In this document: positions 1-37,118 of the stretch, in pieces | Layout of the letters: every line of letters begins with the position of its first letter | Numbering within the stretch: the first letter of the stretch is position 1 | IMG/VR virus record: IMGVR_UViG_3300008450_000159 | Coordinates: 1-37,118 of that record | DNA from: a virus | Length of the DNA stretch: 37,118 bases | Direction: 5' to 3' (one strand) | Position numbers and translations under genes: made by a program | Notes under the pieces: generated by a model | Databases searched by the model: none | What the model was told of the DNA's origin: nothing | Seen by the model: the letters and a program-made list of their open reading frames with translations, nothing else

Positions 1-2152
1 TATCATGCTGTGAAATAGTAGGTGTATTCATCCATGTTTTCTCCTCAATTACATAACCATACATCCCATTCTTTTTGATACGATGATAGCCCAATCGTTT
101 CAGTTCCATTCCTAATTTTTTGACTGATAGCTTTTGCTTGGTAGCCATTTCAATTAAATCCTTAATCTCTGATGTAGTCTTGAAACAATGGTCATTAGCG
201 TTACCTACTGGCTCAAAAAACTTATAGACCATTTCAGCCTCAATAGATACTTCAGAGTACCTACCACTTGTATAATGCTCCAGTAGGTCTATTTCTTCAC
301 TTGATAGCTGTGAACGTACACCATCAATAAATAACTCTTTGACTTGTGCAAACAATTGCTGTTTGTCTATGCTGTTATATAACTGATAATCGAATCTACC
401 AGTAGCTTCAATGATTATGATCCGCCTATTGCCGGTAGAATCATTCAGTAATTCTGTTTCATTACATGTACCACATAAGGTAGCTACTCTTGGTAGAGTT
501 ACATTCTTCCGTCCATATGGCTCACGCAGAGTAAATGAATCTGATGATAACATCTTCTTCATGTGTTTGGAATCCTGCTTTGACTTACCGGAATATTCAT
601 CATCGAAGATGATTAGCTTTTGGGTCATCAATAGTTCATCATCCTTTCCTTTGTCTAACTGGGAATTTGCAAAGAATCTCTTTAGTGGATTAGGTAGGAG
701 TCTTTTGAAGAATTGGGTCTTACCAGTATTCTTTGCTCCTGCCAGTACCAAGCATAAGATATTTGGCTCATTATCATATATAGATTCAATTATACCAATC
801 AACCATTTGGTGATCATTTGTCTCCTCCAAACATGTTCACCAGTATCACTTGTGATGGATTTGGTTAGGTCATCCAATCTATCATAGCAGTCCCATTGAA
901 TATCATCAAAGTAATCTTTGATGGGATTGTAAGATGGAGTAGATGTGGAGAAAAGTATAGTATCAAAGATTTCTCTTGTAAGCTTATCGAACTTCTTTTT
1001 ACCATCAATATAAATAGTATTAAGATCTTCGATTTCCAATTCCCTACCAGCAAGTTCATATGACCTTGTGATGATATTCTTTTTAATTGGATAATTAGTT
1101 CTCAACCATAACTCTACATCATCAATAGAAAGCTTCTTTTCATCCTTATTTGGTTTAAACTCATGTGAATTAAATACAGCTTTGATTACTTCATTATCTT
1201 GCTCTGATAACTTACCATCAATCATTTGGACTACATCATCTGGCTTTTTGTTAGACTCTTTAGCATAATAAGTAAGCTTACTGATGTACTCCTCACGTTC
1301 ATCATAAATTTGAATATTGTTAAGCTTGCAGTAGTAATAGAATGAGTTAATAGTTATACTACCATTATTATACTTTAGACAATGTTGGTACTGCCTATCA
1401 GTATCATTTGGATTATATGATGGACTAAACTTGGAAATACGATGAAAATATTCTGTACCAATATCACCATAGGTATTTGCAATGGCAAATCCAATTGTTA
1501 GCCATTGTTTATAATCACCGGTAATATCCTTATTGATTGCAGAAAGTATTCTTTCGAACTTGGTATTTGTATGCAGGAAAGATGACTTCTTTGCATTTGC
1601 ATCATTAATCCTACTTTGCCTTGTTAGATAATCCTTGAATGTGGAGGAATTACTATTGATGACTAAATCTGGGTCATAGCTGATGAATCTTGCTCTTGCA
1701 ACATCCCTACATGATGGGTCAATAGAAATACCAAGTAGGTTATAGTAGTACTGCTGTAATCCATCAAATGCGTCTCCGTGTTTATTATGGTCTATCTTAA
1801 CTATGCAACATAGACCTTTAGTGCTTATAGAACGGAATACACTATATGTGTATTTATCTTGAGCAAGAATATCAAAAGCAGAGTTTATGTTTGGAACATC
1901 ATCAATATCTATTGCTATCAGTCCAGAATGCTGAAGCAATCCATCATTATTTCTTGTTGCGAAAGTTCCACTTGTGGTAAAGTAAGGTACTTTCTTCTTT
2001 AGCTTTTGTCGTTCAGCTTTATCCTTTTCGATTGCTATACTGATACATAAATCCTGCCATCTACCATTCTTAATTTCATTTAGAATATGGTTGATCTCAT
2101 ATACTAATCCATCAGTTACTTGATGGATGTTTTTGTAGAGTGATACTTGCAT
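1..2152 (-). CDS. VirE/VapE-family primase-helicase with BT4734-like N-terminus (3' end off the window edge)
   Basis: Replication protein that probably primes and unwinds phage DNA. The frame is open without a stop from ATG 2152 to base 1 (717 codons). The N-terminal part, with the segment HSGLIAIDIDDV near residue 70, matches the BT4734/VirE_N type domain. A PriCT-2-like stretch follows (WLTIGFAIANTYGD, around residue 225). The C-terminal half is a superfamily-3-like VirE ATPase with Walker A GAKNTGKT at residues 472-479 and a Walker B-like LIIFDDEY near residue 515. The next conserved region contains GNRRIIIIE. It is the last gene of the early module and is preceded by an AC-repeat leader and an intrinsic terminator. 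If the window is circular it continues at 37118 and ends at 37048, giving 740 aa. Family assignment is confident; exact enzymatic activities are inferred from the family. Confidence 0.9.
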   Translation of the reverse strand, partial: MQVSLYKNIHQVTDGLVYEINHILNEIKNGRWQDLCISIAIEKDKAERQKLKKKVPYFTTSGTFATRNNDGLLQHSGLIAIDIDDVPNINSAFDILAQDKYTYSVFRSISTKGLCCIVKIDHNKHGDAFDGLQQYYYNLLGISIDPSCRDVARARFISYDPDLVINSNSSTFKDYLTRQSRINDANAKKSSFLHTNTKFERILSAINKDITGDYKQWLTIGFAIANTYGDIGTEYFHRISKFSPSYNPNDTDRQYQHCLKYNNGSITINSFYYYCKLNNIQIYDEREEYISKLTYYAKESNKKPDDVVQMIDGKLSEQDNEVIKAVFNSHEFKPNKDEKKLSIDDVELWLRTNYPIKKNIITRSYELAGRELEIEDLNTIYIDGKKKFDKLTREIFDTILFSTSTPSYNPIKDYFDDIQWDCYDRLDDLTKSITSDTGEHVWRRQMITKWLIGIIESIYDNEPNILCLVLAGAKNTGKTQFFKRLLPNPLKRFFANSQLDKGKDDELLMTQKLIIFDDEYSGKSKQDSKHMKKMLSSDSFTLREPYGRKNVTLPRVATLCGTCNETELLNDSTGNRRIIIIEATGRFDYQLYNSIDKQQLFAQVKELFIDGVRSQLSSEEIDLLEHYTSGRYSEVSIEAEMVYKFFEPVGNANDHCFKTTSEIKDLIEMATKQKLSVKKLGMELKRLGYHRIKKNGMYGYVIEEKTWMNTPTISQHD

Positions 2153-2153
2153 G

Positions 2154-2163
2154 GTGTGTGTGT
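2154..2163 (-). repeat. (AC)5 leader repeat before the primase-helicase
   Basis: On the minus strand the bases just before ATG 2152 read ACACACACAC then C, directly against the start codon. This is the shortest of four AC dinucleotide leaders in the early module. No Shine-Dalgarno sequence is present. The repeat may serve as an unstructured ribosome-loading site; this is inference. Confidence 0.7.
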
Positions 2164-2170
2164 TTATGGG

Positions 2171-2205
2171 TAAAAAAATCCTCTTGCTTTACGGAGCAAG
2201 AGGAT
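2171..2205 (-). terminator. Intrinsic terminator just upstream of the primase-helicase
   Basis: A perfect 11-bp stem (ATCCTCTTGCT at 2178-2188 and its complement at 2195-2205) with a 6-base loop. On the minus strand it is followed directly by a run of seven T (2178-2172). It lies between the upstream gene cluster ending at 2255 and ATG 2152, only 19 bases before that start codon. No promoter is evident between hairpin and gene, so expression of the primase-helicase probably depends on read-through or antitermination. Confidence 0.85.
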
Positions 2206-2254
2206 GATGGATGCAATGTTAATGGGTTACACCATCATCACCCAAATTTGTTAA

Positions 2255-2398
2255 TTACTTGAATTCCCAACCATCGGGATAAATGGTATGTGTATTCGTT
2301 TTAAGGATTCGACTAACAATTTCATCCTTGGTAGGAATACCTAATGATAGACGAATACTAATGAATGCTGCCAGTAAGCTTGTGTTGATGTGTATCAT
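2255..2398 (-). CDS. Small protein of 47 aa, unknown function
   Basis: The start ATG (2398-2396) overlaps the TGA stop of the preceding gene as ATGA, the coupling used throughout this genome. The product begins MIHINTSLLAAFISIRLSLG and ends YPDGWEFK. It has a short hydrophobic N-terminal part and a polar C-terminal half containing KDEIVSRIL. I do not recognise the family. The coupling, sensible codon use and position just before the terminator support it as a real gene. It closes the group of small exported or membrane proteins between 3552 and 2255. Confidence 0.6.
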   Translation of the reverse strand: MIHINTSLLAAFISIRLSLGIPTKDEIVSRILKTNTHTIYPDGWEFK

Positions 2399-2841
2399 AG
2401 CAGTAGGAGTAATAGTGCAAGAATTCCGGATGATGTCATATAAAACTTCTTTTGTTTTTTATACTTGACATTTTCTTTTTGTACTTCACGAATAGTCCAT
2501 TCAAGTGAATCATTATCTATACTGATTAGCCTATATGATTCCAATGCATCAGTTAATTGAACATTCAACATCTTCATATAAGCAGTCTGCTTACCTATTA
2601 ATTCATTCTGAACTTGTCTATTTTGTTCCAGAAGATGTAGTTCTACTCTATCACTATCAGCTTGCGTTAAATCCTGCAACATATAGATCACAAGATTCTT
2701 GGGTAAGATGACCAGCGAATCCTTACTGGATTGAGTCTTTGTACCGGTCTGACAATGTGCGGAAAAGGTCTGAAGAAGACATATTGCTAATGTAAGGATT
2801 AGCAAGACCTTTGTTACTGCGAATTCTAACGATTTGTACAT
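2395..2841 (-). CDS. Exported coiled-coil protein, possible spanin-like component
   Basis: A 148-aa product with an N-terminal signal-like segment (residues about 10-30, ending FSAHCQ), a polar helical middle rich in E, Q, L and K (about 55-130), and a strongly hydrophobic C-terminal end with a run of leucines (about 137-148). The segment KDSLVILPKNLV resembles small exported proteins I recall from Flavobacterium and other Bacteroidetes phages (memory, not a search). Its first 119 bases overlap the upstream 112-aa gene in another frame, reminiscent of overlapping Rz/Rz1 spanin genes. It lies far from the endolysin, so the spanin idea is only an inference. The cysteine near residue 30 is not in a good lipobox. 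Confidence 0.65.
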   Translation of the reverse strand: MYKSLEFAVTKVLLILTLAICLLQTFSAHCQTGTKTQSSKDSLVILPKNLVIYMLQDLTQADSDRVELHLLEQNRQVQNELIGKQTAYMKMLNVQLTDALESYRLISIDNDSLEWTIREVQKENVKYKKQKKFYMTSSGILALLLLLL

Positions 2842-3061
2842 CAGTTTTGGTTTTGATTTTTAGTAAGGAGTCTATTTTGAGATTCATTTTACCATATAGT
2901 TCACGATTTATGTCCATTCGTGATTCAAGCAGTTCTATTCTCTCTATAGTATCTAAATCTGGCTTTTGTTTTTTCATAGCATTATTGACCATGAAATAAC
3001 ATATAAGAATGCTGATAGCACATATAAGCACTATTTGCATTATGGTTTTTTGAGCATTCAT
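2723..3061 (-). CDS. Small membrane-anchored coiled-coil protein, i-spanin-like
   Basis: A 112-aa product with one N-terminal membrane helix (about residues 8-28, IVLICAISILICYFMV). It is followed by a charged helical segment likely to form a coiled coil (about 35-75, IERIELLESRMDINRELYGK) and a polar tail. A type II anchor with an outward coiled coil is the layout of inner-membrane spanins, but the sequence carries no diagnostic motif. The start is one base after the neighbour's end, and the 3' end overlaps the next gene by 119 bases. Function unproven. Confidence 0.65.
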   Translation of the reverse strand: MNAQKTIMQIVLICAISILICYFMVNNAMKKQKPDLDTIERIELLESRMDINRELYGKMNLKIDSLLKIKTKTDVQIVRIRSNKGLANPYISNMSSSDLFRTLSDRYKDSIQ

Positions 3062-3062
3062 A

Positions 3063-3395
3063 TTAAAGTGATTTTAGATAGGTAATAGCTTCGATTAGTT
3101 CAGCTTTATCAGAGTAAGGAATAATCTCAAGCATTTCATCCATCAAGCATTTATTATATAGTTCTACCTTTTTTGCAATCTTGCTGAATTTAGCTTGTGT
3201 ATACTTTGTTTTTGGAACATTACCATCAACATCTTTCAATGATGTCATTGGCAAAGCTTTTACTACTCTTTGTACTTCTGTGACATAGACTTTTGATAAA
3301 TCTACTTTGGTCATCTTTAGCAGAGTCGAATCTGCTGTTTGTGCATTCGCATTACCCAGTAGTGCGACAAATGCAATGGTTAGGATTTGTTTCAT
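3063..3395 (-). CDS. Secreted protein of 110 aa, unknown function
   Basis: It has a typical signal peptide: MKQ, then the hydrophobic ILTIAFVALLG, then a probable cleavage after NANA at about residue 18. The mature part is small, basic and helical, with no recognised domain. The start codon lies one base after the stop of the 51-aa lipoprotein gene. It is part of a run of four or five small envelope-directed products, which suggests a role at the host envelope such as lysis or superinfection exclusion. The role is inferred from context only. Confidence 0.65.
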   Translation of the reverse strand: MKQILTIAFVALLGNANAQTADSTLLKMTKVDLSKVYVTEVQRVVKALPMTSLKDVDGNVPKTKYTQAKFSKIAKKVELYNKCLMDEMLEIIPYSDKAELIEAITYLKSL

Positions 3396-3396
3396 G

Positions 3397-3552
3397 TTAA
3401 TAATGTTGGAGATTTGATTGTTGGTTTTTTTTGTATTTGTGATATGCTTCAGAATGAGTTACATCATGGTAGGATGAACATGATGATATAAACAATAGAG
3501 TGATTAAAGCAATCACTTTATACTTTGCCAATCTTGATAGAACTGCTCCCAT
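3397..3552 (-). CDS. Small lipoprotein of 51 aa, o-spanin candidate
   Basis: ATG at 3552-3550 opens a frame to TAA at 3399-3397. The N-terminus MGAVLSRLAKYK is basic. It is followed by a hydrophobic core and the lipobox ISSC at residues 22-25, so the mature lipoprotein would be only 27 residues (CSSYHDV...). Start and signal overlap the end of the nuclease gene (stop at 3513). An alternative TTG start at 3531 would give 44 aa. Small lipoproteins next to membrane coiled-coil proteins fit the outer-membrane spanin pattern. The reading frame and lipobox are seen directly; the role is inference. Confidence 0.6.
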   Translation of the reverse strand: MGAVLSRLAKYKVIALITLLFISSCSSYHDVTHSEAYHKYKKNQQSNLQHY

Positions 3553-3953
3553 GTTTTTGCTATAATGTATACTCCTCCACTATTTTGAACTTCCGATTGA
3601 ACTTTAATTTGATGTTCACTCATTTTGTCTTTACCTACCTTCACTTCAATTGCTACCATAATGCTAAATCTTCGACCTTGATGTTCAATCATTTTATTAG
3701 CTATGATATCACTAATGCCTTTACGAGTCCCTCCTTTTCTCCACTTACCGGTTCTTTTATCATATATACCAGTATTATTAATTCTATCAGCATAATGACC
3801 AGTTAGCCTAACGAATTCGACTATTGCTCTGGTCAATTCATTACTGGATGCATCTTTAAATGGACGAACTGGAGGAAGAGCATGCAATGGAATCAATGGA
3901 TGTTCAGCAATCTTCTTCATCATTGCAAGCTTTGTAAGGTCATTTAATGTCAT
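3513..3953 (-). CDS. VRR-NUC domain nuclease
   Basis: A 146-aa protein of the VRR-NUC (PD-(D/E)XK) type. Visible motifs are GTRKGISDI (about residues 74-82, with the metal-binding Asp), AIEVKVGKDKMSEHQ (about 101-115, E-x-K) and a following helix with Q and E. The family cleaves branched or replication-associated DNA. It overlaps the DUF3310 gene by 14 bases at its 5' end and the lipoprotein gene at its 3' end. It sits in the replication and recombination module with ERF and the primase-helicase, which fits a Holliday junction or recombination role. No upstream HTH or helicase domain is fused. Confidence 0.85.
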   Translation of the reverse strand: MTLNDLTKLAMMKKIAEHPLIPLHALPPVRPFKDASSNELTRAIVEFVRLTGHYADRINNTGIYDKRTGKWRKGGTRKGISDIIANKMIEHQGRRFSIMVAIEVKVGKDKMSEHQIKVQSEVQNSGGVYIIAKTWEQFYQDWQSIK

Positions 3954-4143
3954 TGACTGATCTATTTAAATACCAAATAGCTTTCTCAAGATCTTCTTTT
4001 TTATCATTCTTCCTTCCTGCTCTTGCAATATACTTGATTGCATTTCCCAGCTTAAAATCTAAATTCCAAGCCTCAATTACATTGATGACTTCATAAGTAT
4101 CATCATCAAATTGATAATGTTTAGGATGATTTATATGGCTCAT
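3940..4143 (-). CDS. DUF3310 protein
   Basis: A 67-aa protein with the full DUF3310 signature: PKHYQFDDDTYEVINVIEAW, then LGNAIKYIARAGRK, then EDLEKAIWYLNR. The family is common in phage replication modules and is often fused to or listed with nucleotide kinase-like proteins. Its biochemical role is not established. Its length is typical for the single-domain form. It overlaps the nuclease gene downstream by 14 bases. A large hairpin (4184-4234) lies upstream, between it and the preceding lipoprotein gene. Confidence 0.9.
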   Translation of the reverse strand: MSHINHPKHYQFDDDTYEVINVIEAWNLDFKLGNAIKYIARAGRKNDKKEDLEKAIWYLNRSVNDIK

Positions 4144-4228
4144 GTGTAAGTATCATTCCGGTTATTGATAGTACTAAAATTAAGCAAGATGATAGGAGAC
4201 AATAAGGAATCATTAATGCTCCTATCAT
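4121..4228 (-). CDS. Possible 35-aa membrane peptide (uncertain)
   Basis: ATG 4228 to TAA 4121 would encode MIGALMIPYCLLSSCLILVL followed by SITGMILTHEPYKSS, almost entirely one membrane helix. Its start codon lies inside the right arm of the hairpin at 4184-4234, and it runs 23 bases into the DUF3310 gene. The stretch may simply be a terminator in which a hydrophobic frame arises by chance from T-rich codons. Recorded because it is the only coding candidate in this 120-base gap. Confidence 0.25.
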   Translation of the reverse strand: MIGALMIPYCLLSSCLILVLSITGMILTHEPYKSS

Positions 4229-4234
4229 GCTTGC
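4184..4234 (-). terminator. Large hairpin between lipoprotein and DUF3310 genes, terminator-like
   Basis: Left arm 4184-4198 (GCAAGATGATAGGAG on the plus strand) pairs with right arm 4219-4234, with one bulged base, around a 20-base loop. On the minus strand the hairpin is followed by TTAATTTTAG, a modest T-rich tail. It lies after the lipoprotein gene in the direction of transcription. A terminator, an attenuator or a protein-binding inverted repeat are all possible. Confidence 0.5.
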
Positions 4235-4263
4235 AACACAACACACTATGTGTAATTTTAATT

Positions 4264-4791
4264 TTATTGGCATTCCCATTCCCACACACCAGTTCGAACA
4301 GCAATGGGTGTAGAGTAGTAGTATGTTATTGTATAATTTACCTTATCAGTAATAACATAGGCAGCTTGCATTTGGTAATCTGTAGATGGTTTCATCATGC
4401 ATGATGTGCCATATTTCATATAGAACAGATTAGTCAAGCAATCTGCACTATATGGGCAATCTCTTGGAGTTACAACAATTCGATATGGTGTAACTTCAAC
4501 ATCAGCAGTACTAACTGGTCGATTCTGGTCATCCCATCGAAGAATCAACCATCCACATATGGATGTATCAAATTTCATGTTCCAATTAGTAGGAGACATT
4601 TCAATTTTTTTCCATTCAGTAGTAGGTTGATTATTACCATTACCATTACCATTAGCACCACCAGCATTTGGATTAAACTTTCGAAGATTTGCATCTTCAG
4701 CTATTACTGGTGATACATTCGACAATTCATCTTTGTGCTTCATACATGCTGCGAATAGCAACAAGCAAATGATTAATGTTAGATTTTTCAT
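4264..4791 (-). CDS. Lipoprotein of 175 aa, unknown function
   Basis: The signal is MKNLTLIICLLLFAAC with Cys16 as the lipidation site. The mature protein has a low-complexity linker of alternating N and G (about residues 43-55), followed by a compact domain with six cysteines that may be disulfide-bonded (CGWLILRWDD, RDCPYSADC, CMM, terminal WEWEC). A beta-rich surface-exposed domain is likely. Phage-encoded lipoproteins often block superinfection or act on the envelope, but nothing here fixes the role. It is the last gene before the 4184-4234 hairpin. Confidence 0.7.
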   Translation of the reverse strand: MKNLTLIICLLLFAACMKHKDELSNVSPVIAEDANLRKFNPNAGGANGNGNGNNQPTTEWKKIEMSPTNWNMKFDTSICGWLILRWDDQNRPVSTADVEVTPYRIVVTPRDCPYSADCLTNLFYMKYGTSCMMKPSTDYQMQAAYVITDKVNYTITYYYSTPIAVRTGVWEWECQ

Positions 4792-4845
4792 GGGTCATTA
4801 TTTTTATGCTAATGTAATGGGTAAATGTATATAATTAATGGGTGA

Positions 4846-5157
4846 TTAATTCACTTCACTAATTTGAGTAGCTAAATCTGTGTGTTTAAGTTTAGTAATT
4901 TGTTCATCAAATGTGCGTAATCTAACCGAAATTTCATCTACATGCTTACGCAGTAGCTTTGACATTTCATTTTGATAATACTTTTCATCCCTATTATTAT
5001 AGGATGATTTTATTTGAACTTCTCCTTTAGACCATTTGATGTATTTATCAAGAGATTCAATGTATTTATCAAACAGCATATCACGTTCATAGATAAGATT
5101 CCAGATTTCATCTGTGTGATTTGCATCATGCTCACCGGAGAGGATTTTAATTTTCAT
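4846..5157 (-). CDS. Hypothetical protein, 103 aa, coiled-coil
   Basis: A charged, mostly helical protein without membrane segment or signal. Repeated pairs of charged and hydrophobic residues (LLRKHVDEISVRLRTFDEQ, about residues 67-86) suggest a coiled coil. No family is recognised. The start overlaps the end of the 74-aa membrane protein gene by 11 bases, showing that it belongs to the same operon. A 54-base gap with repeated AATGGGT elements separates it from the lipoprotein gene. Confidence 0.6.
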   Translation of the reverse strand: MKIKILSGEHDANHTDEIWNLIYERDMLFDKYIESLDKYIKWSKGEVQIKSSYNNRDEKYYQNEMSKLLRKHVDEISVRLRTFDEQITKLKHTDLATQISEVN

Positions 5158-5371
5158 TGGATTTGTATTTAGCTATTTGGTCATTAATTGATTTACCTAT
5201 GAATGTCATTACTACGAATCCTACCGGAATTCCAATAAGATACCATCCAAAGATCTGCCATAGCCAGTAGAGTAACATTACTGCTCCTACAGCTAACATC
5301 CCAGTTACTACGTTATCAAATACCTTGATAACACTATATATTTCATTCAGCAATTTTTTCATCTGTATCAT
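5147..5371 (-). CDS. Small two-helix membrane protein, 74 aa
   Basis: Two hydrophobic segments (about residues 17-41, VVTGMLAVGAVMLLYWLW, and 43-62, YLIGIPVGFVVMTFIG) are followed by a short polar tail. A start at Met4 (5362) is equally possible and gives MKKLLNEIY. The 5' end overlaps the preceding gene by 29 bases and the 3' end overlaps the next by 11. No family is recognised. Small two-helix proteins can be holins, but this one is in the early module, so that role is doubtful. Confidence 0.6.
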   Translation of the reverse strand: MIQMKKLLNEIYSVIKVFDNVVTGMLAVGAVMLLYWLWQIFGWYLIGIPVGFVVMTFIGKSINDQIAKYKSNEN

Positions 5372-5687
5372 CTTCGATTGTTATGTTACCATTTAGAAAT
5401 TCTTTCATAGCCATGTATAAAGCTTGCTTTTTGTGAATTGGCAATTCCAAAAGCATTATCATTAAATCACTCCAGACTTGTGAATCATCCAACAAATCAT
5501 CCATGTCCATATTACCAGCCATATGTGTGTATAATGATTTAGCTGATGAAAGGTATGTAGATAGTAATTGCTTTGTTCTAAAGTTCACCTTATCTTTTAG
5601 CACATATGACCATGCTTCTGCTTGTTGTGACAATGACATAAACATGAATAGTGCAAATCTGTTATTATCAAGTTTTAATCCTTCCAT
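5343..5687 (-). CDS. Hypothetical protein, 114 aa
   Basis: A soluble, predominantly helical acidic protein. The C-terminal end is rich in D and E (NITIEDDTDEKIAE). No signal, membrane helix or known motif. It overlaps the upstream 155-aa gene by 13 bases and the downstream membrane protein gene by 29, so it is clearly coupled. Position after the ERF and 155-aa genes suggests a link to replication or recombination, but the sequence does not say which. Confidence 0.6.
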   Translation of the reverse strand: MEGLKLDNNRFALFMFMSLSQQAEAWSYVLKDKVNFRTKQLLSTYLSSAKSLYTHMAGNMDMDDLLDDSQVWSDLMIMLLELPIHKKQALYMAMKEFLNGNITIEDDTDEKIAE

Positions 5688-6142
5688 TTGATTGCATATG
5701 TAGTGGTTGATGATTTGATTGGAGTAAACAAGGTGATTAATTCACCAGTAGATTCATCACAAGTAGTGATTGATGATTTGATACTTCGAAGAAATTTCTC
5801 TCTCTCCTTTCGCAGTTCAGTTAATCTTTCGATTTCAGCTACTAACTGATTTAACTCTGGGTCATTGCAATTAGTATAATCATATTTCACTCCTGCTTCC
5901 TTGATTGCAAATTCACCATTATAGTGAACTATATCTTCACCTTTTTGATACTTGGAACATTCTTCAATGACTGAATCTCTTAATCTCTCCTTTATAGATG
6001 TAATAACATCTTCCATGAATTTTACTCGTACAGCTATGTCCAGAGCATTTACATTGCCTTCATAGATTGAATCAATCAATTCCTTTGCATAGGCACTAAT
6101 AACATCTTTAGTTACCTTTTCGCTGATGTTGATGATGTTCAT
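5675..6142 (-). CDS. Hypothetical coiled-coil protein, 155 aa, next to the ERF gene
   Basis: The N-terminal half is helical and the middle (about residues 98-122, LNQLVAEIERLTELRKEREKF) is a likely coiled coil. The C-terminal end is beta-rich with many threonines. No enzyme motif is seen. It starts inside the last codons of the ERF gene (4-base overlap). Proteins of this size and shape often sit beside single-strand annealing proteins in phages and may help recombination or protect DNA ends. I cannot assign a family. Its start is preceded by an AACAAACACA leader. Confidence 0.6.
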   Translation of the reverse strand: MNIINISEKVTKDVISAYAKELIDSIYEGNVNALDIAVRVKFMEDVITSIKERLRDSVIEECSKYQKGEDIVHYNGEFAIKEAGVKYDYTNCNDPELNQLVAEIERLTELRKEREKFLRSIKSSITTCDESTGELITLFTPIKSSTTTYAIKWKD

Positions 6143-6774
6143 TGTGTTTGTTGCTTTAGAAAGTTAATTTGAAGATGTGACAATGTATACTTCTGCTGAA
6201 TCTGCTCAATAGTTCCACCATCATTGATGAACTTGACCATTTCAGCAAGCTTTGTATCTGGCACTCCCGGTTTAGAACTTGGAGCAATTGAGGAAGATGC
6301 ACCATCATCATCTTCATCACCCACAAGGCAAAGAATAGCTGACAAGCTATATCTTTTTAAATAAGAATAGCCTCCTCCAGCTTGCTGAATTGCATTGACA
6401 TTATTGCCTTGCATAGGGATAACTGCAAGCTTTGATGCAATGAATTCACCACTAATGTGAGTTAGAATAGTTATTACTTCATTACCGGCTAAATGTTGTT
6501 GGATAATTACTCCTTGTTCAGCTAATGCTGGCTTTACCTTGGTCACTAATTCATCCAAGGTAGTATAAGAGCGATTCTTCCCTCCTCCTACTGGTACTGA
6601 TTTATCCTTCTTAATGCTCACTCCTGCCTTGTGAAAGTTCAGCAAAGCTTTGTTGATGTTAGATTGATTCTTCGATGTCCAGTAGGAATCTGTGTGCCAA
6701 ATGATGTCAATTGGCTGTGATGATGTGCACTCATTCTGCTCCACTTCTTCAAATAGTTTTTTTGATTGTGCCAT
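6139..6774 (-). CDS. erf: ERF-family single-strand DNA annealing protein
   Basis: A recombinase of the ERF superfamily that anneals complementary single strands, for example during genome circularisation or recombination-dependent replication. The product is 211 aa from ATG 6774 (MAQSKKLFEEV). Recognisable family segments are INKALLNFHKAG, YTTLDELVTKVKPALAEQGV, ITILTHISGEFIASKLAVIP, and the hallmark QAGGGYSYLKRYSLSAILCL followed by GDEDDDG. The C-terminal tail is short and helical. A frame extension upstream to 6837 would translate the AC repeat as Thr-His repeats and is rejected as the start. It follows a (CA)9 leader that abuts the stop codon of the HTH gene. Confidence 0.9.
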   Translation of the reverse strand: MAQSKKLFEEVEQNECTSSQPIDIIWHTDSYWTSKNQSNINKALLNFHKAGVSIKKDKSVPVGGGKNRSYTTLDELVTKVKPALAEQGVIIQQHLAGNEVITILTHISGEFIASKLAVIPMQGNNVNAIQQAGGGYSYLKRYSLSAILCLVGDEDDDGASSSIAPSSKPGVPDTKLAEMVKFINDGGTIEQIQQKYTLSHLQINFLKQQTQ

Positions 6775-6778
6775 GATT

Positions 6779-6796
6779 TGTGTGTGTGTGTGTGTG
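6779..6796 (-). repeat. (CA)9 leader repeat before the ERF gene
   Basis: Nine perfect CA units on the minus strand fill the space between the TAA stop at 6799-6797 and AATC-ATG at 6774. There is no other leader sequence and no Shine-Dalgarno sequence. A microsatellite of this length is prone to slippage, so its length could vary between isolates. Confidence 0.8.
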
Positions 6797-7045
6797 TTAT
6801 TGATTTTGAATCTTACGTTTTTTTCTCTGTTCATCAATGATGACCTTCAGTTCAGCAATTCGCTCCTCTCGCTGTTTGATAATGCGTTTAGCATGCTGAA
6901 TGATTAGAATTGCATTTTCAGTCATAGCTACTCCTCTTAATGCATTCTGGACTGATTGAGTAGATGTACCAATTTCATTGGCAATAGTAGTTACATCACC
7001 AAATTTCAATTGGTCACGAATTTGCTTTAGTTCAAATTGTTTCAT
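6797..7045 (-). CDS. Small helix-turn-helix-like DNA-binding protein
   Basis: From ATG 7045 (MKQFELKQIRDQL) the product is 82 aa. An upstream ATG at 7066 would add MNLINIT. The segment VTTIANEIGTSTQSVQNALRG (about residues 18-38 of the shorter form) reads as a helix-turn-helix. It is followed by a long basic helix rich in R, K and E to the C-terminus. It may bind DNA as a regulator of the early operon. The 5' end overlaps the 79-aa gene, and the stop codon abuts the (CA)9 repeat that leads into ERF. Confidence 0.65.
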   Translation of the reverse strand: MKQFELKQIRDQLKFGDVTTIANEIGTSTQSVQNALRGVAMTENAILIIQHAKRIIKQREERIAELKVIIDEQRKKRKIQNQ

Positions 7046-7271
7046 TGTTATGTTGATTAAGTTCATTATGCTTCTCCTTATAACCTTCTAACCATCTTTG
7101 TGTATGGTCTCCCCAAGAATGCCTTTCAAAACAATCAATGAGTGAATTACTGATATATATAGCTAATCTCTTGTCTCTCTCTTCCAAATGTCGAATCAAG
7201 AATTCAGTTAATCCTGCAAGATAACTTGCTGCTTCTGCTGCCTTATACGAATCGTAATTTCTTGAATTCAT
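7032..7271 (-). CDS. Hypothetical protein, 79 aa
   Basis: A small helical soluble protein with alternating hydrophobic and charged residues (AAEAASYLAGLTEFLIRHLE) and a polar asparagine-rich tail. No family is recognised. It starts two bases after the stop of the 68-aa gene and its end overlaps the HTH gene, so it belongs to the early operon. Confidence 0.55.
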   Translation of the reverse strand: MNSRNYDSYKAAEAASYLAGLTEFLIRHLEERDKRLAIYISNSLIDCFERHSWGDHTQRWLEGYKEKHNELNQHNNETI

Positions 7272-7272
7272 C

Positions 7273-7479
7273 TTAATACGTTACATAAATGATGTGAATG
7301 ACATTACCTTCTTCGTCTAATTCATTATGGACTTCAATCCAATCACCTTTAGGTAGATTGCTTTGGTCAACCAGTTCACCTTGGACGAATGTCATCTCAC
7401 CGGTAACTGAATAGAATTCTACAATTTGATTGCAGCCATGACCTTGTAATGGTGCAATAGTAATTCTTGGATTTTTCAT
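7273..7479 (-). CDS. Hypothetical protein, 68 aa
   Basis: A small beta-rich acidic protein (VEFYSVTGEMTFVQGELVDQ, then WIEVHNELDEEGNVIHIIYV). This could be a small OB-like or SH3-like barrel, but I recognise no family. Its ATG at 7479 lies directly after an (AC)8 repeat plus one C, the second-longest perfect repeat leader in the window. Confidence 0.6.
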   Translation of the reverse strand: MKNPRITIAPLQGHGCNQIVEFYSVTGEMTFVQGELVDQSNLPKGDWIEVHNELDEEGNVIHIIYVTY

Positions 7480-7480
7480 G

Positions 7481-7496
7481 GTGTGTGTGTGTGTGT
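7481..7496 (-). repeat. (AC)8 leader repeat before the 68-aa gene
   Basis: Eight perfect AC units on the minus strand end one base before ATG 7479. The upstream 46 bases to the end of the previous gene include a weak ATGCG/CGCAT hairpin. No purine-rich ribosome binding site is present. Confidence 0.8.
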
Positions 7497-7542
7497 TAGA
7501 GTTTATAAATATGCGTTGAAGAGTCGCATCCCTCTATATTGA

Positions 7543-7866
7543 TTAGAAATTATAGTCGTAGTGCTTGTATGGTTTTTGCTCAATTTCGTATTGCTTGTAA
7601 AAAGCTTTACCAATTCGCATTTCAATCATTTTACCAGTAGCAGTAAAATCATAATCTTGGCTATGGTTATTCAAACAAATTGCTGAAAATCCTCCGGGAA
7701 TGAATTCCATCTTCGATTTATTTTCACTGGCTTCATACAATTCAATGATAATTGTAGTCTTTCCTTTAGTGCCAACAATTTGACCTACTTGCTGTATATC
7801 AGTATACAAGTACCGATTTACGAATTTTCCAATCATTTCTGCTGATACTTTTAATTGCTTTTCCAT
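7543..7866 (-). CDS. Hypothetical protein, 107 aa, first gene of the early operon
   Basis: I choose ATG 7866 (MEKQLKVSAEMIGKFVN), preceded by AAAACACAACAAA. A longer frame starting at 7923 would translate the AC repeat into Thr-His-Pro repeats and also lies at or before the predicted transcription start. The protein is beta-rich in the middle (IVGTKGKTTIIIELYE), with a tyrosine-rich C-terminus. No family is recognised. As the promoter-proximal early gene it could be a host take-over protein; this is only inference from position. Confidence 0.6.
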   Translation of the reverse strand: MEKQLKVSAEMIGKFVNRYLYTDIQQVGQIVGTKGKTTIIIELYEASENKSKMEFIPGGFSAICLNNHSQDYDFTATGKMIEMRIGKAFYKQYEIEQKPYKHYDYNF

Positions 7867-7882
7867 TTTGTTGTGTTTTAAT

Positions 7883-7910
7883 TGTGTGTGTGGTGTGTGG
7901 TGTGTGTGTG
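7883..7910 (-). repeat. Imperfect AC repeat leader of the early operon
   Basis: On the minus strand 28 bases consist of AC/CA units interrupted by two CC doublets. The element falls between the predicted early transcription start (about 7914) and ATG 7866, so it would form the 5' half of the leader RNA. Confidence 0.75.
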
Positions 7911-7940
7911 TTTCTGAATGCAATAGTACAGCTATTTTTG
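7911..7940 (+). promoter_or_regulatory. Candidate promoter for the plus-strand nuclease gene
   Basis: TATTTTTG at 7933-7940 matches the Bacteroidetes -7 consensus TAnnTTTG exactly. A weaker TTTC at 7911-7914 sits about where the -33 TTTG is expected. Transcription would begin near 7947 with a leader of about 80 bases before ATG 8029. It interleaves with the minus-strand promoter at 7921-7952. Confidence 0.4.
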
Positions 7941-9814: not shown

Positions 9815-10354
9815 TTAATCTGGATATATAAAGATACATCCCCTCTTTGCTCCAGTAGCATGCTCATTATACTCAATTGAGTAGCTACCATAGGCTTTAT
9901 CTACAGATTCCTTGATATAATTCCAATCGTATACTATACCGGGATAAGTATCATATCCAAAATCTTTCTTTGGGACTTTAAAATCATGGATGACCAGAAT
10001 TGGCTTTTTGCCAGATCCCCATACCAATTCAATTTCCTGCAACAATGGATTCTCATACCAATGTGCATCAAGGAATACGATGATATTTCCTTCAGCCATT
10101 GTTAATGCTTCCTTGAGGAATTGCTGACTGGGCTGTAAACAATGAATCACATTGTCATAACCATCTAACTCTTGAGTAGCTATCTTATAGAATTCTGGAT
10201 TGATTTCGCATGTATATACTTTGCTGAAATTCTTCGAAAGCCATTTAGTCGTATCAGCATAATAAGTTCCAGTCTCAATTACTGAATCAATTTTAAACTT
10301 CTCCTTGATTTGCAAGAATTTCAATTCAAGGTAAGTATCATTGTTGAATGCCAT
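9815..10354 (-). CDS. SAM-dependent methyltransferase-like protein
   Basis: 179 aa with a Rossmann-type layout: VIETGTYYADTTKWL (about residues 25-39, in place of motif I), VYTCEINPEFYK (about 46-57, acidic end of strand 2), then IIVFLDAHW (about 90-98) and a later strand ILVIHDFKVP. This resembles small phage and surface-polysaccharide methyltransferases of the class I fold. The target is unknown; a sugar, DNA or protein substrate are all possible given the other sugar genes. It overlaps the 68-aa membrane protein gene by 17 bases. Confidence 0.65.
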   Translation of the reverse strand: MAFNNDTYLELKFLQIKEKFKIDSVIETGTYYADTTKWLSKNFSKVYTCEINPEFYKIATQELDGYDNVIHCLQPSQQFLKEALTMAEGNIIVFLDAHWYENPLLQEIELVWGSGKKPILVIHDFKVPKKDFGYDTYPGIVYDWNYIKESVDKAYGSYSIEYNEHATGAKRGCIFIYPD

Positions 10355-11311: not shown

Positions 11312-11335
11312 GAGAGGGGATTTTACTCCCCTCTC
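11312..11335 (-). terminator. Intrinsic terminator between tail and lysis genes
   Basis: A perfect 9-bp stem, GAGAGGGGA (11312-11320) and its complement (11327-11335), with a 6-base loop. On the minus strand it is followed by TTATTATATTAA, moderately T-rich. It separates the probable tail tube gene (ends 11354) from the holin gene (starts 11296). It may trim structural transcripts while allowing part of the transcription to reach lysis genes. Confidence 0.75.
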
Positions 11336-11353
11336 AAATCACACACAATCAAA

Positions 11354-11905
11354 TTAAACAATCGGAATATAACAATTAGTGAAGATACCGGCAGGAGTAT
11401 CATATGGACATGGCAAATCTGGATTTTGCCATTTGACTGATACTTCATAGGTAAGTACTTCTTTCAAGTTATCAGCTACTACCATCTTTGGAGTAATTGT
11501 TACTGGAGTAGCAGCCTCCCAGATTTTAGTGCTTGTACGAAACCAAATGGTGTAATCACTACTTTGCTTGATAGCATTATAAAAATCACAATTGTCTGTA
11601 GTATTTGGGTCTTTGTAAACTAACGTGTGTGTACTACCACCATTCACAGTTTCTGAATCACCAAATCCAACAAGTTCATCTTGTGCAGAATCATAACTAC
11701 CACTTGTTGCATAGATAACAATAATATCACCAGCAGCAAGACCAGCATTCCATTCTGTAGGTGATGCTGGGTCTGTGAATGAGAATGAATTTTTCACATA
11801 AGCTACTGAACGAATTCGAGCAAATTCATAAGTTGGGCAAGGATTACATGTATATTGTGGAATAGCACCACCACCACATGTACTTGCAGGATAATATACT
11901 GACAT
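11354..11905 (-). CDS. Probable major tail (tube) protein
   Basis: 183 aa, beta-rich, rich in T, S, D and N, without signal or membrane helix. N-terminal cysteines occur in TCGGGAIPQYTCNPC. A proline-rich end follows (PDLPCPYDTPAGIF). It comes immediately after the tail-completion genes and before lysis, where a tube protein is expected in the head-neck-tail order. No direct family motif is recognised, so the call rests on position, size and composition. A minor virion protein is the alternative. Confidence 0.5.
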   Translation of the reverse strand: MSVYYPASTCGGGAIPQYTCNPCPTYEFARIRSVAYVKNSFSFTDPASPTEWNAGLAAGDIIVIYATSGSYDSAQDELVGFGDSETVNGGSTHTLVYKDPNTTDNCDFYNAIKQSSDYTIWFRTSTKIWEAATPVTITPKMVVADNLKEVLTYEVSVKWQNPDLPCPYDTPAGIFTNCYIPIV

Positions 11906-12971: not shown

Positions 12972-13009
12972 CTTTTTCCTCCTCTTGGCTTTCCTTTACA
13001 TCCACACAT
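12968..13009 (-). CDS. Possible 13-aa Cys/Arg-rich coupling peptide
   Basis: ATG at 13009 begins one base after the TAA of the 335-aa gene, and its TGA overlaps the next ATG as ATGA. The frame encodes MCGCKGKPRGGKR. It exactly fills the 39-base space between two structural genes and carries a strongly purine-rich stretch. It could be a true micro-peptide, a translational relay, or a chance reading of a purine-rich ribosome binding region (AAGAGGAGGAAAAAG). Confidence 0.35.
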   Translation of the reverse strand: MCGCKGKPRGGKR

Positions 13010-26888: not shown

Positions 26889-27022
26889 TATCCTTGACCA
26901 ATATTTCGTTTAAGATAATTCTTGCTACTCTTCAATTTACTTGATTTCTTTTTAGAATGAACTTTGGGTCTTTTTATTTTGACCTTTGGTTTATAACCAC
27001 TTAGATTATCTTTTTTTTTCAT
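26888..27022 (-). CDS. Small highly basic protein, 44 aa, before the tape measure
   Basis: The frame begins with ATG 27022, overlapping the TAA of the glycine-rich gene (TAATG), and ends with TAA 26888, overlapping the tape measure ATG (TAATG). The product starts MKKKDNLSGYKPKVKIKRP and continues VHSKKKSSKLKSSKNYLKRN, with about 40 percent K and R. I recall similar short basic proteins just ahead of the tape measure in other Bacteroidetes phages. A nucleic-acid-binding or assembly role is inferred from charge alone. Confidence 0.75.
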   Translation of the reverse strand: MKKKDNLSGYKPKVKIKRPKVHSKKKSSKLKSSKNYLKRNIGQG

Positions 27023-28257
27023 TAATAGAATTCCATTACTAAACACATACCACTTGCTCCACTTCCTCCTGCTCCACTAATATTACCATTTAAACTGGCT
27101 GATCCTCCTCCTCCTCCTGCTCCATATAATCCACCATTACCACCATTAATAAATGTTGGATATGATGTGTGATATCCTCCTGCTCCACCAGTACCTAATC
27201 CAATCGTAGATGTCAAGCTTGTTGATAGCATAACTGATGTGCTTCGATTATCACCACCATTTGGACTTGCTCCACTACTTGCTCCAGCTTGTAATATACC
27301 ATTCAAGTATACTCCTCCTCCTGCTCCACCAGTAGTAGATGATGCATTACCATTACTGATTCCTCCTCCTCCTCCTCCTCCCGGTGAACCAGTACTTGCA
27401 AATCCTGCTGTTCCAGCAGTACCATTAGCTTGACTACCAGTTCCACCACTTGCTCCCGATAATGCATATGGACTATATGCAGGAATAGATGTTATGTTAC
27501 TTCCTCCTGCTCCAGATGAACCAGCAATAGCAGTACCACCAGTACCACCAGTACCTCCTTTAGCTACTACTACGCTACCAAAGCTTGTATCACCACCAGC
27601 ACTACCAGAATTACCATTTGTATCATCAGCAGTAATACCAGTACCACCAGTACCACCAGTACCTATAGTTATTGGATAACTTCCAAGGAGTCCATCATTA
27701 CTAATTTGTCTATATACGATTGCTCCTCCTCCTCCTCCTCCTCCTCCATATCTATTGGTGGTAGTCGCTCCTCTTCTTCCTGCTCCTCCTCCTCCTCCTC
27801 CTCCTAAAACAGCAATTAATACTCTGCTTAATCCTTGTGGCTTTGTCCAAGTAGAATTACTGGTATACTCACGCAGAATAACAGATTCTTGAGATGATTG
27901 CTTTACTATTGACCATCCACTACCTTCTGTATATTGTAGAGTATCATTTGATTGAAGAATCGCTTTTATAATAGTATATTCAGTACCACTTACATCTTTC
28001 TTAATAATTACTTGAGCAGCTACTGAATCAGAATTAAATACCATAATGGTATTTACTACTCTTGTCAAATTAGAAGATGGAGACGGAACAAGTTCTACAG
28101 CATTAGTATTATTGGTTAATCCTTGTGAACTACTTTTTGGAACATTCAATCCACCAGCAGTTAATGTACTATAACTACTATACCACATTAATTGGTTAGT
28201 AGTAATTGTACCGGTTAGTACAAGTTCTAACTTCTCTGTAGTAGTAGATAGATTCAT
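27022..28257 (-). CDS. Glycine-rich fibre or tip protein
   Basis: 411 aa. An N-terminal beta domain (about residues 1-130) is followed by TWTKPQGLSRVLIAVLGGGG near residue 137 and then a glycine-rich region to about residue 400. That region has many GGGGGG, GGTGG and GGAGG runs. TW+KP next to GGGG is the hallmark of glycine-rich phage tail fibre domains whose repeats form polyglycine II sandwiches and carry receptor loops (as in Mu- and T-even-type adhesins). Here it lies between chaperone candidates and tape measure. The start overlaps the preceding stop as TAATG. Confidence 0.8.
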   Translation of the reverse strand: MNLSTTTEKLELVLTGTITTNQLMWYSSYSTLTAGGLNVPKSSSQGLTNNTNAVELVPSPSSNLTRVVNTIMVFNSDSVAAQVIIKKDVSGTEYTIIKAILQSNDTLQYTEGSGWSIVKQSSQESVILREYTSNSTWTKPQGLSRVLIAVLGGGGGGGAGRRGATTTNRYGGGGGGGGAIVYRQISNDGLLGSYPITIGTGGTGGTGITADDTNGNSGSAGGDTSFGSVVVAKGGTGGTGGTAIAGSSGAGGSNITSIPAYSPYALSGASGGTGSQANGTAGTAGFASTGSPGGGGGGGISNGNASSTTGGAGGGVYLNGILQAGASSGASPNGGDNRSTSVMLSTSLTSTIGLGTGGAGGYHTSYPTFINGGNGGLYGAGGGGGSASLNGNISGAGGSGASGMCLVMEFY

Positions 28258-31689: not shown

Positions 31690-31987
31690 CCCTAACTACC
31701 TTAATGGTGATACCTTCTTGGGTAAACTCAATGTTTGTTTTTGCCTTACCATATGCTCTGTCAAGTAGCAATTCTGCTGCTCGTACATCACCATCTAATG
31801 CTTTCTTTCTAATCGCTCGTAGTACTTCTTCTGCCATAATCTTTCCATTCTCTTCACCAAGTACTTCTGCAAGTAGCTTTTGAATCTCTGGTATTTTTTT
31901 GGGTCTTCCTCCCGGATTACCACTTTGACCTTTCTTCCATTGATGTGATGATAGGTTATCTTTCCAATTTGGGTTTCTTGCTGCCAT
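31613..31987 (-). CDS. DUF5681-type protein, probable small terminase subunit
   Basis: 124 aa. The N-terminal WKKGQSGNPGGRPKKIPE (about residues 17-34) is the DUF5681 signature found in phage proteins next to large terminases. The middle (IMAEEVLRAIRKKALDGDVR) is helical, and LLLDRAYGKAK is typical of the family. The C-terminal part is acidic and overlaps the large subunit gene. Gene order and size support a DNA-recognition role in packaging. Confidence 0.75.
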   Translation of the reverse strand: MAARNPNWKDNLSSHQWKKGQSGNPGGRPKKIPEIQKLLAEVLGEENGKIMAEEVLRAIRKKALDGDVRAAELLLDRAYGKAKTNIEFTQEGITIKVVRDDGNTTKAEESTQWSEDSTGESEKI

Positions 31988-32873
31988 AGCGTATATCTAT
32001 TGTTTGTTTTAATCCTTTGTCTAATGCAATAGTAGATGACCATCCAAGTTTTTTTAACTTCGATGAATCCATTAACTTTCTCTCTACTCCATCTGGTTTA
32101 TTACTATCAAAGATAAAGCTACCTTTATAGTTTATAATCTTGCTGATTTTCATAGCCAGTTCAGCAATAGTACATTCTTCTCCACTACCTACATTGATTG
32201 GCTCATTATCATCATAGTGCTTCATTATGTAACAACATGCATCAGCTAAATCATCAACATGCATGAATTCCCTCTTTGGATTACCAGTCCCCCAAATCTC
32301 TACGAAATCTTCACCCATTGATTTAGCCTCCCAAATCTTACGAATCAAAGCAGGAATAACATGACTATTATTCAAATCATAGTTATCACCTTGACCATAT
32401 AGATTGGTAGGAATAACACTAATGTAGTTAGTACCATATTGCTTATTGTAGGATTTGCATAGTTCTATACCGGTAAGTTTTGCTACTGCATATGCTTTAT
32501 TTGTAGACTCTAACACACCACTAAACAAATACTCCTCCTTCATTGGCTGTTTGCAATTCCTTGGATATATACAGCTACTACCAAGAAACATAAGCTTATC
32601 TACACCATATATCTTGGATGCATGTATGATGTTCGATTGAATCATCAGATTGTCATACAAGAATTCACCGGGATATATACTATTAGCAATTATCCCTCCT
32701 ACCTTGGCAGCAGCAATATATACATGATTTGGTTTATGCTTTCTCATTAATGCAATGACTTGGCTCTGGTCTCGTAAATCTGCATCCCTCCTGCCTATTC
32801 CGATTGCTTGAGGAATCCTTCTCATTAAAGCACTACCTACCATTCCTTCTGCTCCAAATATTAGTACTTTCAT
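31956..32873 (-). CDS. fcl: GDP-L-fucose synthase
   Basis: 305 aa short-chain dehydrogenase that epimerises and reduces GDP-4-keto-6-deoxymannose to GDP-L-fucose with NADPH. GAEGMVG at residues 7-13 binds the cofactor, and AAAKVGGIIANSIYPGEFLY (54-73) is the family hallmark. Ser99, Cys101, Tyr128, Lys132 and His171 correspond, with a constant offset of 8, to the E. coli residues Ser107, Cys109, Tyr136, Lys140 and His179. It is complete and slightly short at the C-terminus. It overlaps the glycosyltransferase gene as ATGA and runs 32 bases into the small terminase gene. Confidence 0.93.
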   Translation of the reverse strand: MKVLIFGAEGMVGSALMRRIPQAIGIGRRDADLRDQSQVIALMRKHKPNHVYIAAAKVGGIIANSIYPGEFLYDNLMIQSNIIHASKIYGVDKLMFLGSSCIYPRNCKQPMKEEYLFSGVLESTNKAYAVAKLTGIELCKSYNKQYGTNYISVIPTNLYGQGDNYDLNNSHVIPALIRKIWEAKSMGEDFVEIWGTGNPKREFMHVDDLADACCYIMKHYDDNEPINVGSGEECTIAELAMKISKIINYKGSFIFDSNKPDGVERKLMDSSKLKKLGWSSTIALDKGLKQTIDIRYGSKKPKLER

Positions 32874-33442
32874 TTTGCTTCAGTTATTGCATCATCATAA
32901 ATGTATACACATAAATAATCATCTATGTGATGACTGGTTTTAGCTAATGGAATAATCTGTTTCAAATATTCCCAATCTTCTCCATACATCGAATCTGGAT
33001 ATTTACCTTCAATAGCTATAATCCTCCTCCATGCACAAACATGCCAAGGAGGACGTTTAAATCCATTTAATGATGGTTCATCATTCTTTTCATAACCTAA
33101 TTCAAATGTCAATCCCATTGGTATTCCCCTATTGATAATCACCCATTGTTTAAATGTGACTACATCAACATCTTGCTTACATCCATTAACTAACTCTGCA
33201 ACATAATTAGGTTTTACTATATCATCATCATCAATCCAACATACATAATCACCTTTGGCAATATCTAATAGTGCTTGTCTCTTATAGCCTATACTCCTTC
33301 TTTTATTATCACAGACTACCAATAGTTCAACTTCACTTGGATTATCTAATGCATTGATTTGATATTCAAGTTCACTAATCAAAGCAATTAAATGTGATTC
33401 AATCCTGCTTGGAATACTTGGAATCAATATGCTTAATATCAT
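32870..33442 (-). CDS. Glycosyltransferase family 2 protein
   Basis: 190 aa from ATG 33442 ([20 protein letters not shown]). A TTG two codons upstream is less likely. GT-A motifs: [18 protein letters not shown] (about residues 43-60), then [14 protein letters not shown] (about 73-86) with the DxD, and later [16 protein letters not shown] (E-D pair, about 158-173). It is paralogous to the protein at 35483. No membrane helix, so it acts in the cytosol. It lies between gmd and fcl and overlaps both genes; the acceptor is unknown. Confidence 0.85.
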
Positions 33443-34412
33443 GTTCAATCATTTCAGTTAACATATCACGCATGCTATATTTTGGTGACCAATCAAGCAA
33501 TTCTCTTGCTATACTACTATCACCTAACAATTCATCTACTTCTGTAGGTCTATAGTATTTCTTGTCAATAGCTACCTTTCGATTACCATTGACATATCCA
33601 CCAGTAGCAGACCATTCAAGCTTCATTCCTACAATGTCAAATGCCATTGTTACCATTTCCTTCACAGAATGTGATTGACCAGTAGCTATAACCAAATCAT
33701 TTGCTACTGGCTGTTGCATCATCAAGTACATAGCTTCTACATAATCTTTAGCATGACCCCAATCTCTCTTACTATATATGTTACCCAAATGCAAGACTGA
33801 ATGCTTACCGGTGACCATTCTGGCAATAGCCTTTGTTACCTTCCTCGTTACAAATGTCTCTCCTCTCCTTGGACTTTCATGGTTGAATAGTATTCCATTG
33901 CTGGCATGAATACCATAAGCTTCTCTGTAATTACGAGTAATCCAATATGAATAAAGCTTTGCTACTGCATAGGGTGACCTTGGATAAAATGGTGTAGATT
34001 CCTTTTGTGGAATCTCCTGCACCATTCCATATAACTCTGATGTACTTGCTTGATAGAATTTACATTTCAATCCCAGTATTCTTATCCCCTCCAATAATCT
34101 CAATGTACCTAATGCATCCACATTAGCTGTATACTCTGGCATTTCAAAGCTTACCTTGACATGAGACATTGCACCAAGATTGTAGACTTGATCTGGATTA
34201 GTCTTCTTTAAAATACTCAATACATTGAGTGAATCTGATAAATCACCATAGTGTAATTCAAAATTGGGATGGTCGAATATATGGTCTATTCTTTCTGTAT
34301 TAAATAGACTGCTCCTCCTAATCATCCCATGAACTACATATCCTTTCGATAATAATAGTTCAGCAAGATAACTTCCATCTTGACCGGTCACACCAGTAAT
34401 TAATGCAATCAT
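33399..34412 (-). CDS. gmd: GDP-mannose 4,6-dehydratase
   Basis: 337 aa enzyme that converts GDP-mannose to GDP-4-keto-6-deoxymannose. GVTGQDG at residues 7-13 binds NADP. The catalytic residues are Thr124, Ser125 and Glu126 in STSELYG, Tyr148 and Lys152 in [22 protein letters not shown] (177-191) is the family signature. It is about 35 residues shorter than the E. coli enzyme but all key residues are present. The start overlaps the preceding gene as ATGA. With fcl it forms a complete GDP-L-fucose route from host GDP-mannose. Confidence 0.95.
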
Positions 34413-34621
34413 TCCAATTCTTTAATGAAAGCTTTTAGATTGTCCAGCACTCCTAACCATAGCATATCATCCTGCTCTACATATGTACCATAGTTATATC
34501 CCGGCATGACTTCCACTACTTCAATAGTGGTTAGTGTACCTACATTCTGCGTAATCTTTAGGATTACCGATAGCTGTTGTGGCTGCACATAATAGCTACC
34601 TGCATAGTAAATGATGTTCAT
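34409..34621 (-). CDS. Hypothetical protein, 70 aa
   Basis: A small beta-rich acidic protein ([20 protein letters not shown], then [13 protein letters not shown]) ending in a helix ([16 protein letters not shown]). The stop is coupled to the gmd start by ATGA. No family is recognised. Location within the sugar block suggests an accessory role, but that is inference. Confidence 0.55.
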
Positions 34622-34626
34622 GCTTT

Positions 34627-35480: not shown

Positions 35481-35482
35481 AG

Positions 35483-37097: not shown

Positions 37098-37118
37098 ATA
37101 TTATAATATTAGTATATT
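37048..37118 (-). CDS. Probable C-terminal end of the primase-helicase (if the window is circular)
   Basis: Joining base 37118 to base 1 keeps the primase-helicase frame open for 23 codons (KYTNIIILSYLSYPSRSNYY then DYQ) to a TAG at 37050-37048. The tail would be polar and tyrosine-rich, and the SYLSYP part is encoded by the GGTAAGATA repeats. The total length is then 740 aa. The alternative is that the window is a linear cut and the real end is elsewhere. Confidence 0.5.
   Translation of the reverse strand, partial: YTNIIILSYLSYPSRSNYYDYQ

Follow-up and report, generated by a model that had tools for sequence, protein, structure and literature searches.

In Salmonella, ACA motifs enhance translation, up to 100-fold for dppA, and ACAA repeats can work without a Shine-Dalgarno (SD) sequence; the ACA motifs have been proposed to hold the 30S subunit in place, perhaps via S1 (PMC3879156). 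Ribosome display co-selected AC repeats with SD sequences (PMC3310771). In Flavobacterium johnsoniae, initiation rises when structure is low and adenines stand at -3 and -6, and the neighborhood of starts avoids further AUGs (PMC6847099). Among viruses, tobacco mosaic virus (CAA) and poxviruses (poly A) have unstructured simple-repeat leaders that favor translation of viral mRNA (PMC5690424). The choice and ranking of start codons in bacteria and phages without SD pairing have mostly been tested on A-rich host leaders. Here we analyze the virus record IMGVR_UViG_3300008450_000159 (the whole stretch of 37,118 bases, referred to as the window), in which tracts of AC repeats stand before the start codons of four genes. 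We read these tracts, with a probability of roughly two in three, as A/C-only leaders that act as ribosome entry sites and are selected for composition.

Each of the known systems is like the window tracts in some respects and unlike them in others. The enterobacterial ACA/CA-rich enhancers (yifK, dppA, and gltI, which are GcvB targets) are also A/C rich at or near the start, without a strict position and with a proposed S1 contact (PMC3879156), but they stand beside an SD sequence in cellular genes, whereas here long simple repeats of a phage lie at or near AUG without one. The Kozak-like starts of F. johnsoniae likewise have no SD sequence and are A rich and of low structure before the start (PMC6847099). 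In contrast to the phage AC runs, which have C at half of the positions, Bacteroidota hosts favor A at set positions and have no excess of AC runs. The tobacco mosaic virus omega and poxvirus poly(A) leaders are also viral, unstructured simple repeats of A/C or A (PMC5690424), and relatives of the window also use CAA; however, those leaders serve eukaryotic ribosomes with one leader per mRNA, whereas the setting here is bacterial with several genes per genome, and there is no shared descent. The window has AC units, so its likeness to the omega CAA leader is one of working and not of membership, although two relatives (G004 and G005) do have CAA. In ribosome-display sites, AC repeats accompany efficient starts, and C-rich leaders were noted in some phages, but those sites were selected in vitro with E. 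coli ribosomes, with the AC repeats acting alongside SD sequences (PMC3310771).

Five AC runs of at least 10 nucleotides (nt) occur in the window, all in noncoding DNA, and they form four tracts, each before one start (Table 1). Genes of the window lie nearly all on the minus strand, and all four tracts read AC on the sense strand and GT on the plus strand. The tract-led genes encode a primase, an ERF annealing protein, and two small proteins of the block from 8 to 1 kb, which we infer to be early because of its gene order and content. Only two other AC/GT runs of at least 8 nt are present in the window, both 8-mers (11340-11347 and 11625-11632). The five runs of at least 10 nt compare with 0.06 expected and a maximum of 2 among 300 dinucleotide shuffles, and runs of at least 16 nt, of which there are two, occurred in none of 300 dinucleotide shuffles. 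By a rough reasoned estimate, the chance that four of four tracts stand at starts on the sense strand is near 3e-4, assuming that runs occur in noncoding DNA only, that about one-quarter of it is start adjacent, and that the strands are equally likely. The initial annotation had placed four AC repeats directly before start codons, always as AC on the coding strand; the runs, the strand, and three of the starts are as described, whereas the fourth tract lies 16 nt from its ATG and the run at 6779 is one base longer. The milder AACAAACACA that it reported before 6142 is correct, and A/C-rich leaders are also found at starts 2841 and 3395. Its restriction of the repeats to early genes stands for the window, where no late gene has such a run, but is not general: in Flavobacterium phage 11b (L379), which is cultured, the A/C tract AACACAAACACACAAAA at 9969-9985 directly precedes the gene for the major capsid protein precursor.

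Table 1. A/C leaders of the window and the genes and elements next to them (positions are those of the window)
Feature	Position	Strand	Remarks
Primase/helicase gene (BT4734-like_N, PriCT_2, VapE-like)	1..2152	-	Extends beyond window end
Primase A/C leader AAACACACACACC	2153..2165	-	AC run 2154-2163 (10 nt), 1 nt to ATG; start backed by 55%-identical orthologue aligned from residue 1
Terminator-like hairpin, then T7	2178..2205	-	Directly upstream of primase leader
ERF-family single-stranded DNA annealing protein gene	6139..6774	-	Pfam PF04404, 6e-15; PHROG 2324, 4e-30
Milder A/C leader CAACAAACACA of gene 5675-6142	6143..6153	-	Leader read from sequence
A/C spacer from stop codon of gene 6797-7066 to ERF start	6775..6798	-	AC run 6779-6797 (19 nt), AAATC, ATG; 4 nt between tract and ATG
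68-amino-acid (aa) gene	7273..7479	-	Family searches without match
(AC)8 leader AACACACACACACACACC of 68-aa gene	7480..7497	-	AC run 7481-7496 (16 nt), 1 nt to ATG
107-aa gene, first of putative leftward early block	7543..7866	-	Weak PHROG 19789
45-nt A/C-rich leader of 107-aa gene	7867..7911	-	Runs 7883-7892 and 7900-7911 within imperfect AC run 7883-7911, 16 nt to ATG; predicted structure zero
Possible promoter -7-like element TACTATTG	7921..7928	-	Upstream of first leader; weak match to consensus TAnnTTTG

Gene starts were taken from open reading frames (ORFs), not from a trained gene finder. Orthologues whose alignments begin at residue 1 back the ERF and primase starts; relatives able to confirm the starts of the 68-aa and 107-aa genes were not found. 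An assembly artifact is ruled out by the separately assembled contig IMGVR_UViG_3300031857_001933 (L001), which is 100% identical to the window and carries the same repeats. The tracts occupy different transcriptional settings. The ERF tract is an intercistronic spacer that begins inside the upstream stop codon, and the primase tract lies 13 nt downstream of a terminator-like hairpin ending in seven Ts. Preceded by a weak promoter-like element, the leader of the 7866 start is possibly a genuine 5' untranslated region (UTR); comparable elements are TATCTTTG, 31 nt before ATG in the relative L002, and TATATTTG, 41 nt before ATG in G004. A clear Bacteroidota promoter ahead of every tract was considered and rejected: at best a weak match was present, and at some tracts none, so that promoter proximity is not common to all of them. 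Because the tracts serve as both 5' UTRs and spacers, a role in translation fits better than a promoter role. No RNA family or tRNA was found at the tract sites. Two terminator-like hairpins on the minus strand (2178-2205 and 11312-11335) end 15 to 26 nt before the ATGs of the primase gene (2152) and of the gene at 11296, and read-through, processing, and a promoter inside are candidate explanations for the transcription of these two genes past the hairpins.

The start regions led by tracts are among the least structured of the window, with ranks of 2, 3, 4, and 7 among 55 for the probability of being unpaired between -25 and +15, and the folding energy across -30 to +20 is zero at all four. 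There is no G in the 13 to 22 nt preceding these starts and no adjacent SD sequence, and each has an A/C-rich stretch on the sense strand no more than ~50 nt upstream. In the window as a whole, an SD-like motif precedes 4 of 37 long-ORF starts. Among cultured phages, the primase is matched best by those of Nonlabens, Cellulophaga, and Flavobacterium, and a host in the Bacteroidota is therefore likely. The low foldability of the four start regions, the scarcity of SD-like motifs, and these primase matches support the earlier suggestion that the leaders are unstructured and that the host makes little use of SD pairing. A terminase alignment across 84,980 species genomes gave no relative that would point to a host or prophage, and a near-DNA search of cultured phages gave zero matches to the window. 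At the positions known to matter in F. johnsoniae, read start by start, the 7866 leader, ending AACAAA, has A at -3 and -6. The primase and 7479 leaders, ending ACACACC, have A at -3 and C or A, depending on register, at -6, and the ERF leader, ending AAATC, has A at -3 and A or C at -6. Unlike most genes here, the start at 12971 has a strong SD-like AGGAGG upstream (12972-12985), perhaps because coding sequences overlap there or because the start was wrongly assigned.

At orthologous genes of relatives, the AC repeat is replaced by other A/C repeats. These relatives are metagenome contigs, and the terminases of those carrying CAA or AAAC are 74 to 79% identical to that of the window. Leaders of (CAA)n precede starts in G004 and G005; the latter has nine (CAA)n runs of at least 11 nt, six of them abutting ATG (0.15 in shuffles), and eight of the nine lie on the minus strand within 0.4 to 9.7 kb, the region of its primase and ERF genes. 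Leaders of G008 (L186) are built of ACAAAC and AAAC units, and two different genes, with starts at 28745 and 29996 of the reverse complement, share the identical 35-nt leader stretch AACTAACTAATACTAACTCACAAAACACAAACACA, which suggests that leaders are copied within the phage genome. The spacer before ERF is an AC repeat in the window, CAACAACAACAAC in G005, AAACAAACAAACACA in G008, TAAACACA in L002 and G014, and CAACT in G003 and its kin; among orthologues it ranges from 2 to 22 nt and is mostly A/C only (the spacers of L380 and L002 were read from the aligned start, not from an earlier ATG). In G002, G003, G004, and G005, the ERF tract runs on past the start codon as ATGACAACAACA; work cited in PMC3879156 and PMC3310771 reports that CA repeats have an effect when they lie downstream of a start. 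The initial annotation had considered that repeat leaders might be absent from all relatives, which is the case for the AC unit but not for the class, as CAA or AAAC repeats occur at the same places. What seems to be conserved is the role of the (AC)n repeat; the repeat itself is not.

The same comparison bears on whether the tracts are inert spacers. Slippage would then fill scarce noncoding DNA, and selection would purge spacers that fold or add starts, leaving A/C repeats without any gain. It would agree with this that spacer length drifts freely, that every lineage has its own unit, and that microsatellites have few other places to go, with just 1221 nt (3.3% of the window) left noncoding by the gene set used. 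However, long tracts stand at several genes per genome (G005 has as many as eight (CAA)n), the two G008 leaders are identical copies, other spacers of the same genomes are A/T rich and not A/C, and under neutral slippage one would not expect a single functional class to be enriched repeatedly. We consider inert spacers unlikely.

The initial annotation had also proposed that repeat-length change tunes expression, as in a contingency switch in which slippage alters expression among phage individuals. Pure runs of 16 to 19 nt can slip, and leaders of relatives ~90% identical in DNA differ by 1 to 4 nt. In contrast, L001 has the same repeat lengths as the window in all four tracts (two assemblies only, so a weak point), leader lengths are equal in G019 and G005, which are 100% identical around the tract sites, none of the runs is inside a reading frame, and spacers vary freely in length, as in the drift of the ERF spacer. 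Repeat-length stability is thus based on two assemblies plus relatives, and tuning by length finds no backing in it; such a switch appears highly improbable.

The use of one unit at several early genes per genome might instead mark an address for a trans-acting regulator, with an RNA-binding protein, of phage or host origin, or else a GcvB-type, GU-rich small RNA binding the AC tracts and switching the four genes together. GcvB does silence CA-rich enhancer leaders in enterobacteria (PMC3879156). Such an address is not kept in relatives, however, where orthologues bear another unit; no Rfam RNA was found, and apart from one T-rich stretch the window has no other G/T-only tract of at least 16 nt complementary to AC. 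A GU-rich antisense partner within the window is therefore rejected, and regulation in trans seems very unlikely.

The primase and annealing protein genes are two of the four tract-led genes, and GT repeats are recombinogenic, so that the tracts could conceivably be DNA-level elements, the GT-rich strand working in replication or recombination near primase and ERF and not in translation. Against this, the tracts keep one orientation relative to the start codon and do so in unrelated phages as well, relatives retain the composition with units that are not GT repeats, and the iterons near 36992-37097, the likely replication origin, lie away from the tracts. We give this explanation little credence, of the same low order as the length switch. 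The iterons, GGGTAAGATA, are clustered in both orientations at 36992-37097 and in the junction (L001:13601-13855), flanking an AT-rich tract directly after the primase gene, and this region is also the site of the assembly break.

Surveys of other viruses showed the same orientation. Among 2.9 million IMG/VR contigs, (AC)6CATG occurred in 59 stretches versus 5 for the reversed string, and 32 of 49 nonredundant matches were start-like, compared with a share of 24% for the CCATG sites of those contigs (P ~2e-9). In a survey that was not conditioned on ATG, and among the matches listed, (AC)>=8 runs had a start no more than 25 nt away in 22 of 70 cases on the AC strand and 3 of 70 on the GT strand, against a background of 7% (sign test for the asymmetry, 1.6e-4). 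In favor of a ribosome entry role, contigs with (AC)6CATG starts were poor in SD-like motifs (14%) relative to ERF relatives at large (32%); terminase relatives had 11%.

A/C-only RNA offers no self-pairing and no AUG, GUG, UUG, stop codon, or SD sequence. If the tracts are ribosome entry sites, the region before the AUG would stay single stranded and free of false starts in a host without SD pairing. The 30S subunits would load on the A/C leader and start at the first AUG, and contact with S1 or the uS7-side mRNA channel may contribute. We infer that A/C leaders raise translation, and a protein may contact them, possibly at an S1-like site as the initial annotation had suggested. The target of selection would be the A/C-only composition, neither the AC unit nor the length. 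Slippage would create and lengthen such simple-repeat tracts, which would explain why units are lineage specific (AC here, CAA or AAAC in relatives). The tracts would form the 5' UTR of the first early gene and spacers or leaders of the other genes.

Several observations weigh against this reading. Low structure follows from A/C composition and is thus not independent evidence. The AC unit before starts is absent in 25 of 26 terminase relatives, only one having ACACACAC no more than 12 nt from ATG. Some AC-run leaders belong to phages with ordinary SD motifs. Since GT runs create GUG starts, their avoidance, and not a gain from AC, could account for part of the strand bias. Finally, in 395 Bacteroidota genomes the short AC pattern was not in excess (85 matches versus 76 reversed, hand counted), which rules out AC runs as a habit of Bacteroidota genomes and indicates that host genes do not rely on this form.

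An 18-base AC pattern had only 7 matches in 257 Gb of cellular genomes. Because the IMG/VR counts are asymmetric whereas the Bacteroidota genomes have no excess and the long pattern is rare in cellular genomes, the device is, on these counts, a phage habit, rare and repeatedly arisen, and not a host habit. We speculate that the missing host pattern fits a phage competing for ribosomes early. A tentative extension, which we would sooner doubt than accept, is that each lineage has a leader "dialect," its own A/C-only repeat (AC, CAA, or AAAC) spread before early genes by slippage and leader copying, serving as a phage-specific ribosome entry signal unused by Bacteroidota hosts and letting early phage mRNA outcompete host mRNA. 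Orthologous genes with different A/C repeats provide a natural variant set for separating structure, composition, and specific motif, and for genetic work in Bacteroidota, A/C leaders are candidates for start sites that are both strong and simple.

L001 links base 1 to base 37118 via ~153 extra bases, and with its ends so bridged the window is a nearly complete circular map of ~37.27 kb. There is a single rightward gene at ~8.0 to 8.5 kb. Leftward of ~8.0 kb lie small genes, ERF, a VRR-NUC-like gene (a weak match), and the primase gene, and across the junction beyond the primase gene follow sugar genes, terminase, and structural genes. The sugar cluster (31956-36058) contains GDP-mannose dehydratase-like, epimerase-like, methyltransferase-like, and glycosyltransferase-like genes. 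A gene for a tail fiber-like protein (27022-28257) has many short tandem repeats (CTC, TCC, and 9-mers) and a strong GC skew.

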